Translations under genes and position numbers: made by a program
Shown here: in pieces, positions 1-8,360 of the stretch
Layout of the letters: each line of letters begins with the position of its first letter
Numbering within the stretch: the stretch's first letter is position 1
IMG/VR virus record: IMGVR_UViG_3300021962_000781
Span: 1 to 20,891 of that record
Length of the DNA: 20,891 nucleotides
Reading direction: 5' to 3' (one strand)
DNA from: a virus
Notes under the pieces: generated by a model
What the model was told of the DNA's origin: nothing
Databases searched by the model: none
The model's input: the letters and a program-made list of their open reading frames with translations, nothing else

Positions 1-3000
1 TTTCAGGTGTGTCAAAATCAACACCCTGCGCGTTCATTTCGTTTTGGAATTCTGAGAAATTGTTAAAAATTATAGAACATTTTTCATTATTACTATCCCT
101 ACCATTAAATTTAAATTCTTGCACTGATAAATCCAAATTAGGTATTTCCGCATCATTTTCTGGTGTACCATACCAATCAGTCGCCCTTTTTAATAATACT
201 CTCGCAGTACAACCACCAATAGTTATTGTAGGGAAGGCTGGGTTACCTAATGTTCTTATTCTTATCCTATGTTGTTTAAATGTTGGGTTACCTTGAAAAT
301 TATTACTAAAAACAGGAACAGGTATTCCGAATTGGTTATTTTCAAAACCTACTCTTTCCTTACATTCAAAATCACAGAATTTGTCTTTTTTAATTTGTCC
401 AAATTTCCTTTTTGACTTTTTTAACTTATATTGTCTTTTTATTAGTGGGAAATATAATGTACCACCCACCCAATCATTATAAAAGTCAAATTTTAACATC
501 CGTAAGAAAACCGCAACAGGTTCCAATAAACAAGATGCCCAATCTTTAATGCCAGGTGTTTGTCTACCACCACAATTCACACAAGCAAATGGTTTAACAT
601 AAGTTCTATTACAAGCTGGTGAAAAACCTTGTAAGTTAATTAAACTTATTTCTAATTCAACACCTTCATCTGCACACTTTAATGGAATCAACCCTATTCT
701 TTGACAACATCTTCCACCACAACATCCGTCTTCTGGTCCCCCACATATTGATGGGTTTTCTATGCAATCATTATTACCACAACAATTAAACTCTTCACCA
801 TTACAACCATCTTTACAATTATTACATAGAGTAGTAGAGAACAAACATTTTCTTTTTAATCTCCAACACTTACCAAATAATGGAAACCCACCTGTACTAC
901 TACATGCAGCCTTTTCTGCTTGATCAGTAACACCCTGGCAATTTCTTAATTTTATTTCATTACCATCGGCATATTTCCATCTTCTACATTTAGTTGCTGG
1001 TTCACTACTAGGTATACCACCTGCAGGATCCCAACAATCCTCAAAATTGTAACAATATAATCCTCCATTTGGTCCAAATCCTGAACTTGTTTTCGGACAC
1101 CAAAAATCGGCAGAACTACTAGCCAATCCATTTGCATCACCACCTATTAGTTCCCAATTATTTCCTAAATTACTATCTTTAGGATATCTACCTTGATGTC
1201 CTATTGCACCACCAGTTATAGTTGGTCCAGTAGCAGGATTATCAGCAAATTTACAATATGTGCCACTATTACCATTACAAACAGTTAATGGACTCCCTAA
1301 AGCTTTCCACCCATTAAGTGGTGTAGGTACATTAAATACTTGAGTTTCTAAATCACCACAATTTCCATAACCACCATCAAAATCACCACCACTAACTGTA
1401 TCAACATCAATATCTGTTGTAAATGCACTATCCCCTTCATCATTAGCAAATCCACCACCAGTATCCCAAACACTACCGTTCCACCTTTCAACTACATATC
1501 TCGATTGTACTCTACTATTTTTATAACTTTCTGTACATATTCCAGTAGGAATTTTTATATTACAAATTAAAGTTATAAGTCCATTTATAAATTGTATAAT
1601 ACCATTGATGAACCCTACTATATGCCCAAATAAAACAACCAATATACAAATAATACTATATATTGGATTAATTGTTGTGTCTGTTCTATTTGTTGGGAAT
1701 TTGTTAACTCCTTCTGCGTTTATAATATCTTTAATCCCTATAAACCCTCTGGATTCATCTTTTTGATCAAAAGCAATGGGAGTTTTTTGCATTCTCCCAA
1801 TATATTGTTTTACCGTGTAAACTTTCTTCCATCTAAAAGGGAAAAACTCTTCTAAATAGTTATATTGGTTTGTTATGTCATCTTCATATTGTGTACCTAA
1901 AGTTGTTTGACTTAATTGTACATTCTTAGTAAAAGGTCTATCTTTTTTTAATTGTTTTATAGAAAACTCCCCAAAACTAAAGTTGTTGTTTGTATTAGGT
2001 ACTAAATATTTCGCCCTTTGTCTAAGTCTTTTATCATTAGATGTTGCGTCCATAGACACTCTAAATCTATAATCTCCTTCTGTCGCAATACCTTTAATTC
2101 CGTCAGGTGATGGAACTAAATTACCAAACTCATCAGTAACAACCTTCCTAATATTCATAGGTACTAATACCGACCAGTTACCATTATCATCTATAGAGTT
2201 ATCATTAAAGTCAAATGTTTCTATATTCCCATCTACAGTCCTTCTAATAGCCTCAATCTTACCTGGTCCTGTGATAACCTCATTAAGTTTACCCATCTCT
2301 CTGGCGGGTTTACAATTTTTGTTTAATGAATCTTTTTCGTCATCAGAAAATATACTACCCATAAAGATTGCGGTAGGTGTAATTGATATATTTGGTTCGA
2401 TATCATACCTATTAATACCTAAACCACTACCAACACTTAAACTATCACACCAATAAGGTTCTACTGTGATAGGAATGTTTTCAGAAAATATTTGTGGTAA
2501 ACTATCTAAGTTATTAGAACCTTTATATTTAAATCTACTATTAAATAAATCGTCACTATAACCATCTTTGTCTATCATTTCAAAAGGTCTTATCGAAATA
2601 AAACCAATATCACTTACATCCATATCGTAATGTAAGAAATGATCCCCTACAGGTACCCCAAATAAAATATAATCACCCGCTTCATTAGTTACCGTTGTGT
2701 ACTTATAATATTTTTCATATATTTCTAATGTTGTATTATCATCTAATACTTCTCTTTTCTTTGGAAATGTGCCTACTGGTGTGTGATCAAATGATTGTTG
2801 ATTTTTAGGTAATAAATTATACCTAACACCATTTTTATTCTTTTGATCAGGAAATGGTTCTTTATATGGATATATTGCAGATTTTACTGGGTCACTTAAA
2901 TCGGAATCTTGTACAGGAACAAATATTGAAACTTTTACATTTGGTACACCGAACCCATTATTGACAATTACTCTACCCGCTACTACACCATAATCAGCAC

Positions 3001-3145
3001 AAAAGTTTTGGTAATCGTCTTTTTGAGAAATTTTAAGGCTTAGTATCTCTAAGTGATCATAGTTTTGATTAAGATCAACATTTACTTGTATATAACCATT
3101 GTTCTCTTGACCTGGTGTTGTCCTAATTCTGTATGACTTAGACAT
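1..3145 (-). CDS. Giant cysteine-rich tail/baseplate-associated protein with internal membrane segment (partial, 3' end beyond window)
   Basis: The minus-strand frame from the ATG at 3143-3145 stays open to the left edge: 1,048 codons, each checked, no stop. The protein is therefore truncated at its C terminus by the window. Visible parts: a beta-rich domain at residues about 50-180 with VVAGRVIVNNGFGVPNVKV and later TVTNEAGDYILFGVPVGDH, which has the look of a carboxypeptidase-regulatory-like (Ig-type) domain; a hydrophobic stretch at about 495-528 (IICILVVLFGHIVGF then a Gly/Asn break, then IIQFINGLITLIC), long enough for a hairpin; Trp/Gly/Cys-rich sequence from about 545; and 15 Cys between residues 748 and 824. 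It starts 10 nt after the 126-aa membrane protein gene and lies downstream of gp6- and gp25-like genes, the place where T4 has gp7 (also about 1,000 residues). I see no sequence evidence that it is gp7. Role in baseplate or host contact is inferred from position. Confidence 0.85.
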   Translation of the reverse strand, partial: MSKSYRIRTTPGQENNGYIQVNVDLNQNYDHLEILSLKISQKDDYQNFCADYGVVAGRVIVNNGFGVPNVKVSIFVPVQDSDLSDPVKSAIYPYKEPFPDQKNKNGVRYNLLPKNQQSFDHTPVGTFPKKREVLDDNTTLEIYEKYYKYTTVTNEAGDYILFGVPVGDHFLHYDMDVSDIGFISIRPFEMIDKDGYSDDLFNSRFKYKGSNNLDSLPQIFSENIPITVEPYWCDSLSVGSGLGINRYDIEPNISITPTAIFMGSIFSDDEKDSLNKNCKPAREMGKLNEVITGPGKIEAIRRTVDGNIETFDFNDNSIDDNGNWSVLVPMNIRKVVTDEFGNLVPSPDGIKGIATEGDYRFRVSMDATSNDKRLRQRAKYLVPNTNNNFSFGEFSIKQLKKDRPFTKNVQLSQTTLGTQYEDDITNQYNYLEEFFPFRWKKVYTVKQYIGRMQKTPIAFDQKDESRGFIGIKDIINAEGVNKFPTNRTDTTINPIYSIICILVVLFGHIVGFINGIIQFINGLITLICNIKIPTGICTESYKNSRVQSRYVVERWNGSVWDTGGGFANDEGDSAFTTDIDVDTVSGGDFDGGYGNCGDLETQVFNVPTPLNGWKALGSPLTVCNGNSGTYCKFADNPATGPTITGGAIGHQGRYPKDSNLGNNWELIGGDANGLASSSADFWCPKTSSGFGPNGGLYCYNFEDCWDPAGGIPSSEPATKCRRWKYADGNEIKLRNCQGVTDQAEKAACSSTGGFPLFGKCWRLKRKCLFSTTLCNNCKDGCNGEEFNCCGNNDCIENPSICGGPEDGCCGGRCCQRIGLIPLKCADEGVELEISLINLQGFSPACNRTYVKPFACVNCGGRQTPGIKDWASCLLEPVAVFLRMLKFDFYNDWVGGTLYFPLIKRQYKLKKSKRKFGQIKKDKFCDFECKERVGFENNQFGIPVPVFSNNFQGNPTFKQHRIRIRTLGNPAFPTITIGGCTARVLLKRATDWYGTPENDAEIPNLDLSVQEFKFNGRDSNNEKCSIIFNNFSEFQNEMNAQGVDFDTPE

Positions 3146-3155
3146 ATACTAATCA

Positions 3156-3536
3156 TTATTTTTTATCTTCGTTATCGTAAATTTCTACTTCTTCAATCTC
3201 TTCATTAACATAGTTAGTAGTTTTTTCAAATTGTCTTTCTCTTTTCTTTAAAGTTCTTTTTACCTTAAATTCTGCATATTTTGTAAAAATACCCATAAAA
3301 AAGTCTTTAAACTTTTTAGATGCTGCAGGTAATTTTTTAGGTAAAAATAAAGTAAGAAACAATTGTACTACTAATACTAATATAATAAGTGGTATTGCAA
3401 CTACTATAACTAAAAACGTAACTATTTTTAAAAAAAATGTTAAATCGTATAGATTATCAGGTAATAATTTTATTGTGTCTATACCTTCTGTGTTAACTGT
3501 GTCTTCATTTGATTTTTTACATGTACTACATCCCAT
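3156..3536 (-). CDS. Small single-pass membrane protein in baseplate operon
   Basis: A 126-residue protein of unknown function. It begins MGCSTC (Cys3, Cys6), has one long hydrophobic segment at about residues 33-65 (FLVIVVAIPLIILVLVVQLF at its core), then a basic region (about 67-105, many Lys/Arg) and an acidic C terminus (EEIEEVEIYDNEDKK). There is no cleavable signal peptide: about 30 polar residues precede the hydrophobic part. With the positive cluster after the membrane segment, an outside-N, inside-C orientation would follow the positive-inside rule. The gene lies between the gp6-like gene (48-nt gap) and the giant protein (10-nt gap), so it is probably co-transcribed with them. Its membrane segment is notable because the giant neighbour also has one. 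It could be a virion protein, a membrane-anchored assembly factor, or a lysis/superinfection protein; the sequence does not decide. Confidence 0.8.
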   Translation of the reverse strand: MGCSTCKKSNEDTVNTEGIDTIKLLPDNLYDLTFFLKIVTFLVIVVAIPLIILVLVVQLFLTLFLPKKLPAASKKFKDFFMGIFTKYAEFKVKRTLKKRERQFEKTTNYVNEEIEEVEIYDNEDKK

Positions 3537-3584: not shown

Positions 3585-5414
3585 TTATGAAGTGGAAATT
3601 GTCACTTTAATATCTTTATTAGGGTATTTAACTTCAAACATAGCATTAGGTTCCCCAAATAATGTATATCTACCTAATAAATCTATTTGTCTTGTTTCAT
3701 CATCAATATATGGCTGGGCGACTTCATTAAGAGAATACTTACCATTCTCATTAACTTTATTAAATACTCTTAAATCTGTAACATTTAATACGCCACCAAC
3801 ATTGTTAATATTTTCTACTAACTGAGATATATAGATATTATCTCCCATATCCCATTTATTAATATCCATATAATCTGTAACTTGTTTAATAACACCACTA
3901 ATAACTTGTCCTTTAGGTACTGCCTTTTCTATAAAAACATCTATCTCAAATGCCAAATTTAAAACTCTACCGTTTTTAATTGTAACATAATCATTAATCA
4001 TTCTAAAGTCCGCCAAATACTCCGCAATATTTTGCTTCAATGCGGAAGTTGATTGTGTTGTTAATTTACTATTTTCATCTAATGCTAAAATAGAAACATT
4101 AACTTTATTTCTTTCTTCATACACACCAGTTCTAAATGGAACTCCAAATTGACCAGGCATTAGTGGTACTCTACTTTGATAGTCTTTTATTGTAACACAT
4201 CTATTTTGTGCGGAAAAATTATATCTAATTAAATTTCTGATTTCATCTACAGATGGTTGTTCTTTACCACCCAATGCGGGAATAGGATTATTAACACTAA
4301 TACTTTGTCCAATAATTCTATTAGTATTACTATCATCACCATTTATAATAGGAATAACAGTACCTAATGATGTTATAGTGTTTGGACCAATATTACTATC
4401 TTCACCACCACCAATTCTATATCTAATAAAAAGAGTATTGTCTGTTTGAGGTATTTCCCCCAATGATAAATTGTTAACTGTTTTACCTATCCTCTCTATT
4501 TGTCCTCTACAACCCACAAATTCATTTAATTCTGATGTGTCTTGATCACCAGCACCAAATATAATTTTACAAAATCCATTATCAGTATATTCTTTAATAA
4601 ATCTTTGTGGTGAATTTTTCCATTTACCTACAACAACACCTTCTCTATCTGATACCGCATTTTCATCGACTACATACACTTGTGCTTGTGCTAATGCAGG
4701 TACTTCGTACCAATTAAGATCGAAGTCCGAATATTCTTCTTCGGTTGGTTGATTAATGAAATTAGTACCTTCTTTTGTTATAATATTTTCAATTGACAAT
4801 ACATTGTTTTCAGGTAAAATAATTTCTAAAAATGGTTTATAGTCATTTCTAGTTAAAACTTTTTTAAATGTTTTAGTTATACCATTAACCATTATTTCTC
4901 TCTTAGTTAAAGAATAGTTTTGTATAGTACCTGTACCATCTATATTAGGTATTATAAGTCTATTTGGTATTCCACCAGTAGTAAATGGGGAAGAAAAATC
5001 ACAATCTTCTAAAAGTTCGAATACTTTACCCGCTCCAGATGCTTGTGAACCTTTTAATATTTTAGGTGCGTAACTAATGTCAAATGTGTCACCCTTAACA
5101 GGTATATTAGTAACTGTCCAATCTACAATAGTAATACTAGGTCTTTTCCCCGGAATATTTAAACCAAAAGTTCTTGCCAATTCTAATACTGAAGATCTTT
5201 CTTGCGCATAATTTATTTGTGTCTCGTTAAACATTCTATCGGTATGGAATGATAACATATCACCTACCGCAGCATTTAATTCCAATAACATCATACCTAC
5301 TGATGCGTCATTAAAATCTGAAAATGTTTCTGGATAATATTTTTGTATGAATTCTATCAGTTGTCTTCTTACATCTGCGAAATTCCTAGCATTATAATCA
5401 ATTTTTTTTACCAT
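3585..5414 (-). CDS. Baseplate wedge protein, T4 gp6 / baseplate J-like
   Basis: A 609-residue protein of the gp6/baseplate-J family, which forms the wedge ring that joins tail spokes and triggers sheath contraction. Family signs: the N-terminal stretch DARNF-like NARNFADVRRQLIEFIQ followed by DASVGMMLLELNAAVGDMLS and FHTDRMFNET, typical of gp6 N termini; and the conserved core near residues 385-420 with PSVDEIRNLIRYNFSAQNRC then VTIKDYQSRV, the classic baseplate J 'A..R.vT..Dy...' element. Length is near that of T4 gp6 (660). The start ATG lies only 3 nt after the gp25-like stop, showing tight coupling of the two wedge proteins. The stop is TAA. Family assignment is strong; detailed geometry is inferred from T4. 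Confidence 0.93.
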   Translation of the reverse strand: MVKKIDYNARNFADVRRQLIEFIQKYYPETFSDFNDASVGMMLLELNAAVGDMLSFHTDRMFNETQINYAQERSSVLELARTFGLNIPGKRPSITIVDWTVTNIPVKGDTFDISYAPKILKGSQASGAGKVFELLEDCDFSSPFTTGGIPNRLIIPNIDGTGTIQNYSLTKREIMVNGITKTFKKVLTRNDYKPFLEIILPENNVLSIENIITKEGTNFINQPTEEEYSDFDLNWYEVPALAQAQVYVVDENAVSDREGVVVGKWKNSPQRFIKEYTDNGFCKIIFGAGDQDTSELNEFVGCRGQIERIGKTVNNLSLGEIPQTDNTLFIRYRIGGGEDSNIGPNTITSLGTVIPIINGDDSNTNRIIGQSISVNNPIPALGGKEQPSVDEIRNLIRYNFSAQNRCVTIKDYQSRVPLMPGQFGVPFRTGVYEERNKVNVSILALDENSKLTTQSTSALKQNIAEYLADFRMINDYVTIKNGRVLNLAFEIDVFIEKAVPKGQVISGVIKQVTDYMDINKWDMGDNIYISQLVENINNVGGVLNVTDLRVFNKVNENGKYSLNEVAQPYIDDETRQIDLLGRYTLFGEPNAMFEVKYPNKDIKVTISTS

Positions 5415-5417
5415 ATA

Positions 5418-5801
5418 TTAAAAAGTTAATGTCACAGTATCAGTACTAGAAAAAGAATCTTCTGTAACTGTAAATGTTATTTCTACAACAATAGATTCTT
5501 CTACCTCATTATTTCTAAAAATAATACTATTAATAATTAAATTAGGGATATACTTTTTTATGGTATCATTTAAGTTATCTCTAATTTCTTCATGTGTAAT
5601 ACTATCATTAGGTTCAAATATATATTTCTTTAAATCACTACCAAAATCGGGTAAATATAGTCTTTCACCCTTATTAGTTAATAAAAGATGTAATAAATCA
5701 GCCCTAATAGCGTCTCTCGATGTTTGATTTAAATTTAAATAAAAACCTTTGTCACTATCCTTAAAAGGGAAATCAATATTTATATAATTAGTCTTTGCCA
5801 T
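5418..5801 (-). CDS. Baseplate wedge protein, T4 gp25-like
   Basis: A 127-residue member of the GPW/gp25 family (T4 gp25 is 132 residues). In contractile tails gp25 is part of the inner baseplate at the base of the sheath, where it nucleates sheath assembly and binds gp6. Visible family features are the start NYINIDFPFKDSDKGFYL, the helix RDAIRADLLHLLLTNKGERL, and the hallmark GERLYLPDFGSDLKKYIFEP, in which the GER...P.FGS.L pattern is conserved. The C-terminal half is beta-rich. The ATG is preceded by an A/T leader (TATTTATAAACAA on the coding strand) without a Shine-Dalgarno sequence. It is directly followed by the gp6-like gene, the expected partner. Confidence 0.93.
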   Translation of the reverse strand: MAKTNYINIDFPFKDSDKGFYLNLNQTSRDAIRADLLHLLLTNKGERLYLPDFGSDLKKYIFEPNDSITHEEIRDNLNDTIKKYIPNLIINSIIFRNNEVEESIVVEITFTVTEDSFSSTDTVTLTF

Positions 5802-5862: not shown

Positions 5863-7740
5863 TTATTTACATTCTATTTTCATTTTAAATATTGTTTCGG
5901 CTAGCGGTGAGAAAACTAATATAGTTATTTTTTCTTCATCATCTTTTAATTTTTTCATAGTAAATGATCTATCACCTTTTAAAACATCTCCATAACTATC
6001 ATATATATCTTTTAATTTGGTTTTAGTGTTTTTTATACCATTAGTGATTTTTTCTGCGTTTCCATCACCATTTTTAAATATGTTATTAATTGGTGTTCCA
6101 CCAACCTTACTTATTTCCGCGTTTATAGACTCTAATAAACCGTCATTTTGTTTATACCATACTAACTCACCTGCGAAGTTTCTAGGATACCTATCAACTA
6201 TACTAGTGTCATTTTCACTTGTTATTTTACTAGGGAAAATGTCTTTATAAAATCTATTTTTAATATCATCAGGGACACTAGCCATTTTATATAACCCTTC
6301 AGACTTGTTATAAACATCCCCAACAAAACCACTCCAAAATTCTTGTTCACCATATTTTATGTAGAACGCATCTGGTACAATTAAAGGATCGAAAGTAATT
6401 GTTACTTCACCCGTTCCTGAGAACGGCCATTCTGTTTGTAACGATTTATTTACAAAATTATTTTCTTTTTTTCCTCTACCACCTTTTATATCATAAGTTT
6501 GATTACATTTAGGTGGGGTTTTCTTTTTTTCACATTTACAACTTTCCCCCGCAGTATTTAATATTTCATCTTCTTTTTCACATACACATGTGATATTACC
6601 TTCAGCGTCTTTTTGTTCTTTTAATCCCGCCTTACATTTACAATTATTAGTTTCTTCATCCAGTTCTTGACAAGTCGGACATTCTTTTTTCTTTTTACAA
6701 TTACAATCGTCATCTGGTTCTGAACCATCCTCACACACACACTTACCATCTACCTCTTTTAATCCAGGTTTACATTTACATTCACCTTTATCGTCTTCCT
6801 CTTGACACTTAGGACATTCTTTTTTTTCTTTACATTCACAATTTTCGTCAGGTGGTTCATTAGTTTTTTCACAAACACACTTACCATCTACCTCTTTTAA
6901 TCCAGGTTTACATTTACAATTACCTTCTTTATCCTTTTCCATACAAGCATCTGTACACTCTTTAGGTAACTCATAACATAAAGTTGCAGTACATAAAACT
7001 ATTTGTCCTGGGTTAATTTTTCCTTGACTTATGCGTGTCTTCCAATTTTCATCAACCTTATTTTCAGTATAAATTGTTCCACCTTGCAAATATTTAGGTT
7101 TTAAATTAGGATCAATCTTAATTCCTTCTTCTTCCGCCTTTTTTGTAAGTTTTTCTTTAAGTGCTTTATATAAATTTTCTGCCCTTCTACTTGCTAATTG
7201 ATTATTTTCACCTTTTTTACCACTATATGAAGATAATTTTTTACCTGAAAAAGATTTAATTTCCCAATCACTACACAACCCATCATATAAATTACCCCTG
7301 CGTTCCCATTTTTTACACCAGTTATTATCAAAGTCTGGTTCTATTGTACCCTTATAGTAATTACTTGCAAATCCTTGTAGAGTTATTTCTGTAATAAACA
7401 TTGACCCACCTTTAACTTTTGCCTGATTAAAGTCGGGATTATTTTTTACTACAGTTTCTAAATTTTTTATGAAGTTTGTTACCGCACCACTATTTTCATC
7501 AACATCAACAACAAATTCACCTGAAGCTTTTATAACTATACAATCATTTGATTTTTTTGTGTCATCATTTGTTTCTGAAGATTTAGTTTCACCTCCACTA
7601 TTGAGATTTACTTCTGAAGATTTAGTTTTTTCCACATTAGTTGATCCCCCAACTGTGGTAGAAATTTCATTAATAGGTGTACCTTTTTCATACACCATTA
7701 AATCTTTCATTCTATTTAATTGTTCTAATAAATTTCTCAT
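5863..7740 (-). CDS. Cysteine-repeat protein with OmpA-like segment, probable virion protein
   Basis: A 625-residue protein not recognised as a known family. Parts in order: an amphipathic N-terminal helix (MRNLLEQLNRMKDLM) followed by a polar Ser/Thr-rich linker (about 25-65); a domain at about 66-255 whose end, ENNQLASRRAENLYKALKEK, resembles the helix of OmpA-like peptidoglycan-binding domains; a cysteine-rich region at about 262-412 made of three repeats of roughly 46 residues with the core CKCKPGLKEVDGKCVCE; and a C-terminal domain at about 415-625. It has no signal peptide. It sits immediately upstream of the gp25/gp6 genes and starts 59 nt from the divergent metzincin gene, so it probably opens the baseplate operon. 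Peptidoglycan binding or a baseplate role are both inference; the cysteine repeats could bind metal or form disulfides. Confidence 0.85.
   Translation of the reverse strand: MRNLLEQLNRMKDLMVYEKGTPINEISTTVGGSTNVEKTKSSEVNLNSGGETKSSETNDDTKKSNDCIVIKASGEFVVDVDENSGAVTNFIKNLETVVKNNPDFNQAKVKGGSMFITEITLQGFASNYYKGTIEPDFDNNWCKKWERRGNLYDGLCSDWEIKSFSGKKLSSYSGKKGENNQLASRRAENLYKALKEKLTKKAEEEGIKIDPNLKPKYLQGGTIYTENKVDENWKTRISQGKINPGQIVLCTATLCYELPKECTDACMEKDKEGNCKCKPGLKEVDGKCVCEKTNEPPDENCECKEKKECPKCQEEDDKGECKCKPGLKEVDGKCVCEDGSEPDDDCNCKKKKECPTCQELDEETNNCKCKAGLKEQKDAEGNITCVCEKEDEILNTAGESCKCEKKKTPPKCNQTYDIKGGRGKKENNFVNKSLQTEWPFSGTGEVTITFDPLIVPDAFYIKYGEQEFWSGFVGDVYNKSEGLYKMASVPDDIKNRFYKDIFPSKITSENDTSIVDRYPRNFAGELVWYKQNDGLLESINAEISKVGGTPINNIFKNGDGNAEKITNGIKNTKTKLKDIYDSYGDVLKGDRSFTMKKLKDDEEKITILVFSPLAETIFKMKIECK
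6737..6918 (-). repeat. 44-nt exact direct repeat inside the cysteine-repeat gene
   Basis: Positions 6737-6780 and 6875-6918 are identical over 44 nt and are spaced 138 nt apart, which equals 46 codons, one protein repeat unit. Both encode the CKCKPGLKEVDGKCV core. A third, diverged unit lies at about 6590-6660 (CKAGLKEQ). Exact identity including third codon positions points to recent duplication or recombination between units. Confidence 0.9.
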
Positions 7741-7747
7741 AAAAAAT

Positions 7748-7778
7748 TTTGCCAGTTAAAAAAAAACTGTTATATTTG
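7748..7778 (+). promoter_or_regulatory. Bacteroidota-type promoter for the metzincin gene
   Basis: TTTG at 7748-7751 is followed after 19 nt by TATATTTG at 7771-7778. This matches the Bacteroidota housekeeping promoter (-33 TTTG, -7 TAnnTTTG) in both elements and spacing. Transcription would start near 7784, giving a leader of about 15 nt before the ATG at 7800. It lies in the only divergent intergenic space of the window. In AT-rich DNA single elements occur by chance, but the paired match at the right distance from an isolated gene supports it. Confidence 0.55.
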
Positions 7779-7799
7779 TTATATAAATATAAAACAACT

Positions 7800-8360
7800 A
7801 TGAAAAATTTAATTATTATCTTATTTATTTTAGTTCCAAACTTAATATTTTCTCAAACATATTTCACTCACGAACAAATCGTAAAAATTACAAAATCTAA
7901 GAGATGGGAATCTGATGTTAAAATTTTTATCTACGGTGATTGTGATTCTGTTAGTAAAAACACTATATATGAAACTATATCTCATTTCAACAATTTAATG
8001 GAAACAGTTCAAATAAGGGTTGTTGATAAAAAAGAAGATGCAAATACTATTATCTATTTTTTAACAGATAAAGAGTACCAAAATTTATTTTCTTATTGTG
8101 ATCATAGTGACAATCTTGGTGCAACATATGTTAAAAGATCGTTAGACCTTAAAAATACTATCATTGAGGGTGATGTACACATAGACACTCAATTTAGTAA
8201 TAAAGAAATACAACACACTATCAAACATGAAATGTTTCATATGTTAGGATTCCATCATCACAAAGACGAAAGTTCGACTATTATAAAATATGCAGGTAAT
8301 TTTACCAAAAAAGATGATGAAATGATTAAATATTTATATTCTAAAAAATTTCAATTTTAA
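7800..8360 (+). CDS. Secreted metzincin-type zinc metalloprotease
   Basis: The only plus-strand gene. The ATG at 7800 gives 186 residues starting with a classical signal peptide (MKNLIIILFILVPNLIFSQ; likely cleavage near residue 19-20). An upstream in-frame ATG at 7749 would bury the signal peptide and overlap the promoter, so it is not used here. The catalytic motif HEMFHMLGFHH at residues 143-153 fits HExxHxxGxxH: zinc ligands His143, His147 and His153, general base Glu144. Soon after comes SSTIIKYAG, in the place of the metzincin Met-turn but without a Met. The protein is small for a protease and has no propeptide or extra domain that I can see. The export signal places it in the periplasm or outside. 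Own promoter, own terminator and opposite strand suggest a moron expressed independently of the phage programme. Substrate unknown; a peptidoglycan or surface-protein role is possible. Confidence 0.85.
   Translation: MKNLIIILFILVPNLIFSQTYFTHEQIVKITKSKRWESDVKIFIYGDCDSVSKNTIYETISHFNNLMETVQIRVVDKKEDANTIIYFLTDKEYQNLFSYCDHSDNLGATYVKRSLDLKNTIIEGDVHIDTQFSNKEIQHTIKHEMFHMLGFHHHKDESSTIIKYAGNFTKKDDEMIKYLYSKKFQF

Follow-up and report, generated by a model that had tools for sequence, protein, structure and literature searches.

It is poorly understood how contractile phages cross host membranes once the sheath has contracted, and the usual candidates for membrane-active parts are tape-measure or hub proteins. 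The locus analyzed here, a stretch of viral DNA of 20,891 nucleotides (the window), raises the question of whether a giant protein encoded directly after two baseplate wedge genes (GIANT) could be such a part. The gene was originally predicted as 1,048 stop-free minus-strand codons without a stop in the window, and this was confirmed (Table 1). Because the window is an entire IMG/VR record, the missing part of the gene was taken from a relative, L002 (L002:10001-15409), whose protein is 100% identical to that of the window over residues 1 to 1048. Completed in this way, GIANT comprises 1,802 residues, of which 54 are cysteines. Between L002 and L003, dN/dS was 0.04 over residues 1 to 450 and 0.13 to 0.26 beyond, and the frame is a genuine coding sequence under purifying selection.

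Table 1. Positions in the window of GIANT, its parts, and the neighboring genes
Feature	GIANT residues	Window position	Strand	Remarks
GIANT gene, first 1,048 of 1,802 codons	1-1048	2..3145	minus	ATG at 3145; open at left edge
Transthyretin/carboxypeptidase-regulatory-like domain with inserted helices	50-255	2381..2998	minus	AlphaFold2 pLDDT mostly 75-89
Second beta-sandwich, transthyretin/CnaB-like (weaker assignment)	257-450	1796..2377	minus	Z about 6
Hydrophobic helix, stripe C500-G507-N514-N521-C528	494-528	1562..1666	minus	
Hypervariable, length-variable segment	530-745	911..1558	minus	Low model confidence
15-cysteine block	748-824	674..904	minus	Absent, along with the helix, from L085 and L152
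KFDFYNDWxxGTLY core motif	885-898	452..493	minus	Chain rejoins the conserved core here
s126, MGCSTCKK-TM-charged-tail protein		3156..3536	minus	Candidate membrane partner of GIANT
Baseplate wedge gp6/J-like		3585..5414	minus	PHROG 219, E=9.7e-20; 28% identity to full-length immuto gp6
Baseplate wedge gp25-like		5418..5801	minus	Pfam GPW_gp25, E=2.5e-13

GIANT belongs to a widespread, unnamed protein family

Pfam and PHROGs searches with the full protein gave chance-level matches and nothing better, and profile searches of PDB sequences gave weak beta-domain matches or none; no search matched GIANT to a known tail fiber or gp7 family. Relatives were found in metagenomic data. One scan with GIANT recovered 133 IMG/VR loci, and two further scans with divergent members enlarged the family; a scan with L088, a member that lacks the hydrophobic helix described below, returned no relatives. 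tblastn with the window protein and three other members (L078, L086, and L137) against 50,697 INPHARED phage records gave no match, and no cultured member of the phage group that carries GIANT was found. Seven homologues came from GTDB genomes; most of these lie on MAG contigs, and one belongs to a single-cell genome of Prochlorococcus. BFVD contained one clear homologue, A0A8S5LA66 from Myoviridae sp. ctPuP5 (Foldseek E=1.9e-45; 39% identity over 540 columns), a true relative that is itself only a predicted, unnamed metagenomic sequence. Contigs carrying GIANT reach 380 kb. We conclude that GIANT represents a widespread protein family that has no name and that combines its features in an unusual way.

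Several observations concern individual members. The Prochlorococcus member (L083:10001-14911; QCKH01000004.1) lies in single-cell genome AG-409-L21, an assembly with sheath and terminase genes on contigs other than that of L083; an infected cell or a co-sorted particle is possible. The longest members seen, of 1,961 to 2,433 amino acids, come from host-associated MAG contigs, two of them labeled rumen (L084, L086, and L087). Two homing/HNH endonuclease-like genes lie within the structural region (65,136-67,660 of G001, the record of L019; L147:5136-7660). crAss001 gp44 was considered as a relative and rejected, as its start differs and its sequence, read by eye, had no similarity to GIANT.

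GIANT is an additional protein of the baseplate operon

The placement of GIANT after gp25 and gp6 was borne out by the profile matches of both neighbors (Table 1). In L002, the gene order is RNR, gp25, gp6, s126, GIANT, d744, d294, d291, d300, and d932, and the order gp25-gp6-GIANT-d744-d294-d291-d300-d932 is kept across the family. This conserved association with gp25, gp6, and the gp7-like d932 supports a gene of the baseplate operon, as the original prediction had it. A tail sheath (PF04984) was detected in 9 of 10 records checked, above the cut-off in 5 of them, and a terminase was detected in 4 of 7. The region between RNR and gp25 in the window holds a divergently transcribed open reading frame (ORF) of 203 amino acids (7749-8360, plus strand) and one of 625 amino acids (5863-7740, minus strand), which only some members of the family keep; in others they are replaced.

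The closest cultured relatives of gp6 are those of Microcystis phage Mel-JY01 and Flavobacterium phage immuto (28 to 29% identity). In both phages, a large protein is encoded soon after gp6; PHROGs gave it no name, and it is, in our reading, gp7/gpI. Against the proteins of immuto, Mel-JY01, and LR756508, a profile of d932 gave matches at E=3.6e-9, 4.8e-7, and 2.5e-5, including the large post-gp6 proteins of immuto and Mel-JY01. In contrast, the best E value of a GIANT profile against the proteins of these three was 0.09 (in a set of about 33), and GIANT alignment A1 matched the large immuto protein with a probability of 0.1%. As far as tested, then, GIANT did not behave as the gp7 equivalent, and the separate downstream d932 matched instead. 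Since it is d932 that matches the large post-gp6 protein, and since synteny ties GIANT to the same operon, we conclude that GIANT is an additional baseplate-operon protein but not gp7.

Transthyretin-like N-terminal domains and exchangeable C-terminal tails

AlphaFold2 modeled the window protein (55 sequences) with a mean pLDDT of 68.6 and L074, a minimal complete relative of 954 amino acids (58 sequences), with a pLDDT of 86.7 and a pTM of 0.84. The N-terminal domain superimposed on the transthyretin-like domains of carboxypeptidases N and D with Z values of 6.2 to 6.8, which, being below 8, call for a cautious reading (rmsd of 1.9 to 2.5 over 79 to 86 residues). The best match, to the L074 model, was human carboxypeptidase N domain (Z of 6.8, rmsd of 1.9, 80 residues, 25% identity). 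PF13620 stayed below its cut-off in this region (E=0.052; 14.3 bits versus 32.3). The carboxypeptidase-regulatory-like N region proposed earlier is thus supported by fold. For the second beta-sandwich, the Z value lies below the level that would exclude a common arrangement. Foldseek and VIA-align searches with whole models returned transthyretin/CnaB-like folds only and nothing informative for the helix, the cysteine-rich head, or the C-terminal core.

L074 stops directly past the conserved YFYFGLSPGKTAL motif, and other members run on into variable tails. SprB repeats scored above the Pfam cut-off in the tails of seven distant members (L056, L062, L075, L121, L069, L106, and L054); they point to Bacteroidota hosts, unlike the Prochlorococcus setting of L083. 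The tail of L045 has a weak laminin-G match. No SprB repeats were found in L002, and its final 402 residues matched no family.

A conserved hydrophobic helix with a heptad stripe

A hydrophobic segment had been noticed near residues 495 to 528. The Kyte-Doolittle threshold for transmembrane (TM) segments is indeed exceeded at residues 488 to 530, a stretch that is free of charge at 490 to 530, and a hydrophobic segment lies at the same place in all of the first 80 relatives and in 152 of 156 testable members. AlphaFold2 predicted one uninterrupted helix, of 35 residues in the window protein (494-528) and 53 residues in L074 (456-508), with a pLDDT of about 77 to 95. The Gly/Asn-broken hairpin of the original prediction is therefore unsupported. 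It should be noted, however, that a midhelix Pro occurs in many distant members and that the approximately 70 hydrophobic residues of far clades could form two helices.

We scored membrane insertion with a home-made simplification of a published scale, of which the ranking alone is usable. The GIANT helix scored -1.15, and 100 shuffles averaged +3.2. Because the lowest shuffle (-1.33) lies under the GIANT score, shuffling alone does not decide; it is the conservation of the segment at one place across relatives that puts the helix beyond chance. Among the ORFs listed for 120 kb of a 128-kb relative (G001), GIANT had the lowest score, in a ranking in which the s126 homologue was masked by an overlapping ORF. 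Among the genes of the window and five downstream genes of L002, only s126 approaches GIANT, and by this score no tail gene of immuto or Mel-JY01 encodes a comparable segment.

In 49 ungapped sequences, the helix has a periodicity of 102 degrees that was equalled by none of 5,000 column shuffles. The register formed by C500, G507, N514, N521, and C528 is an exact heptad with a mean entropy of 0.5 bits, versus 1.3 to 2.3 bits in the other registers, and N514 is identical in every row. Two of the other registers are mostly small or polar and four are mostly I, L, V, or F; the helix is free of charge in 35 of the 49 sequences. A Gly/Asn/Cys stripe with a hydrophobic exterior fits the packing of a membrane-embedded oligomer. 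The earlier idea of a membrane role is plausible and has been strengthened.

The same registers can, however, be read as positions a, d, e, and g of a multihelix barrel, in which case the helix would form the shaft, a coiled coil or alpha barrel, of a baseplate spike or fiber. Concealed by its own copies and by adjacent tail proteins, this shaft would never meet a bilayer, and a head at its tip would bind the receptor. Supercoiled packing of helices is implied by a heptad spacing that stays exact over 28 residues, and such a coiled coil could be buried by partner proteins. At 35 to about 70 residues, the hydrophobic stretch also exceeds the need of a single bilayer crossing, and its length varies past bilayer thickness. 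Against this, the outer positions are Gly, Asn, Thr, and Ser and mostly uncharged, which is unusual for a soluble coiled coil, and the most invariant part is the small/polar stripe rather than the hydrophobic face. We judge a shaft of this kind unlikely.

The helix and the cysteine-rich stretch behave as one cassette

The original prediction counted 15 cysteines, including CC pairs, between residues 748 and 824. There are exactly 15 (748, 760, 767, 774, 777, 781, 788, 789, 794, 801, 808, 809, 813, 814, and 824), and the block is better conserved among carriers than is the hypervariable segment that precedes it. In close pairs (for example, L005/L006, L011/L008, and L107/L108), identity drops to 7 to 60% at the end of the helix and recovers before the core motif, in otherwise highly conserved surroundings. 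For L005 and L007, dN/dS in this stretch was 0.9, a value taken where the alignment is unreliable; the stretch was likely exchanged through recombination. A hypervariable segment at the helix end would suit a stalk with a tip. It is also hard to reconcile a hypervariable head that lies past a membrane helix with receptor binding before insertion.

Two members have neither the helix nor the cysteine-rich stretch: L085 (747 amino acids, complete) and L152 (754 amino acids, 3′ end missing). Both retain the N domains as well as a core motif of the DFYNDW type, and L085 also retains the YFYFGL end. L088 (728 amino acids) likewise lacks the helix. Judged from these sequences, the helix and the cysteine-rich stretch appear to act as one cassette. 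Since the flanking core persists in L085 and L152 although the helix is missing, the scaffold does not require the helix as a buried core.

A small TM gene accompanies GIANT

The s126 gene ends 10 nucleotides upstream of GIANT and encodes 126 amino acids: an MGCSTCKK start, a hydrophobic helix of approximately 30 residues, and a basic and acidic tail. A search for s126 in phage records (the tblastn set of 50,697) gave no match. In GIANT members with upstream sequence, a TM gene lies upstream of GIANT in 135 of 166, with an M-x-C-x-C-like start in 134 of the 135. Considering members long enough for both features, the TM gene is present in 125 of the 152 that carry the GIANT helix and in none of the four scored as lacking it (L085, L088, L152, and L226, the last being incomplete and less clear). 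A hypergeometric estimate for all four helix-less members lacking the TM gene is about 0.001, with members being related. This relatedness, and the existence of far clades that have the helix but not the gene, make the association suggestive only.

In these far clades (L205, L222, L225, L133, L212, and relatives), about 44 to 71 consecutive residues are hydrophobic, often with a Pro in the middle, a SYPxCxxCxCE-like cluster follows the hydrophobic stretch, and no TM gene precedes GIANT. The stretch is possibly two helices in a single chain; the idea that it arose by fusion with the small TM protein is suggestive at most, and we do not claim it.

A buried shaft would leave the co-encoded TM gene unexplained. 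The gene figures instead in a second alternative, that GIANT and the small protein anchor the growing baseplate at the inner membrane of the infected cell, or that the small protein chaperones the helix up to closure of the baseplate, with no role in entry. A virion TM protein would be odd in a membrane-less phage, which favors a role in the infected cell. The adjacency of the TM gene, its near-constant start, the more basic region C-terminal of its helix, and its absence from the four helix-less members are all in line with tethered assembly, and membrane-anchored contractile systems are known (PMC8894136, PMC10781749). However, the segment past the helix is hypervariable, which suggests that it touches a host molecule that changes, and far clades carry the helix without the neighboring gene. 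We regard tethered assembly as unlikely. That GIANT is a nonvirion membrane protein displayed on the infected cell, acting in exclusion or aggregation through adhesin repeats, is very improbable: the TM-like helix and the cysteine-rich and SprB-type adhesin modules would suit it, but GIANT has no visible N-terminal hydrophobic signal peptide, its synteny between gp6 and the gp7-like gene is strict, and its N-terminal scaffold survives without the helix.

Proposed role of GIANT

We tentatively favor, at a little short of even chances, the reading in which GIANT, mounted on the baseplate and fiber-like, attaches to the host and inserts its helices into a membrane, perhaps together with a small partner. 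The shaft and tethered-assembly readings have real support and together weigh about the same. Under the favored reading, the conserved transthyretin-like N part and the core around KFDFYNDW and YFYFGLxPGK would form a scaffold, probably bound to the gp6/gp25 wedge, and the C-terminal tail would be a module open to exchange, which in relatives consists of SprB repeats or is lectin-like. The two scaffold parts would flank a cassette of a 35- to 70-residue hydrophobic helix followed by a hypervariable cysteine-rich head. The helices may oligomerize along the Cys/Gly/Asn stripe. Upon host contact, they would enter the membrane, possibly with the MGCxC-TM protein encoded upstream, and the head would meet a host-specific partner. 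The virion location, oligomer, membrane insertion, its timing, and the target membrane are what we infer here. Here, a membrane-like helix is part of a giant protein encoded next to the wedge genes, with a small TM gene as neighbor, in a large phage group with over 130 loci; the hypervariable segment may set host specificity, and natural variants without the cassette make the idea directly testable.

Comparison with known systems

Like T4 gp7 and P2 gpI-like wedge proteins, GIANT is large and encoded after gp6 in a baseplate operon; unlike them, it is accompanied by a separate gene, d932, for the homologue of the large post-gp6 protein. The fold of its N-terminal domain is common to carboxypeptidase regulatory-like/transthyretin and CnaB domains, whereas in GIANT this domain is embedded among large helical insertions and falls under the Pfam cut-off.

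Hydrophobic helices of phi29 gp9 exit the tail knob and form a barrel as thick as a membrane (PMC6542822). The gp9 L-loops resemble GIANT as an internal long hydrophobic helical stretch of a tail protein, thought to penetrate the host membrane (PMC6542822). Unlike GIANT, gp9 is a podovirus knob, with no detectable sequence relation to it; profiles A1 and A2 retrieved no gp9 chain from PDB sequences (E≤1 and E≤5), and folds were compared as whole models only. To our knowledge, gp9 has no cysteine-rich hypervariable head, adhesin tail, or small TM partner.

The membrane proteins TssNQOPR of the Bacteroidota T6SSiii were considered as a counterpart and rejected, since their domains differ (PKD, vWA) (PMC10781749). 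In the Anabaena thylakoid-anchored contractile system (tCIS), Cis13 is a baseplate-bound, fiber-like trimer whose TM helix anchors the contractile machine, and removal of its membrane segment freed many particles (PMC8894136). Cis13 differs from GIANT in having its TM helix near the C terminus and in not belonging to a phage, and no sequence match between the two was found. It resembles the predicted GIANT in being baseplate bound and fiber-like and in combining a long helix with a segment that spans a membrane. By this analogy, the GIANT cassette and the MGCxC-TM partner might make up a two-protein baseplate membrane module that anchors the contractile tail to a membrane, a proposal we consider somewhat doubtful; with equal reserve, such a module would be anchoring akin to that of T6SS and thylakoid-anchored CIS, but in a free phage.
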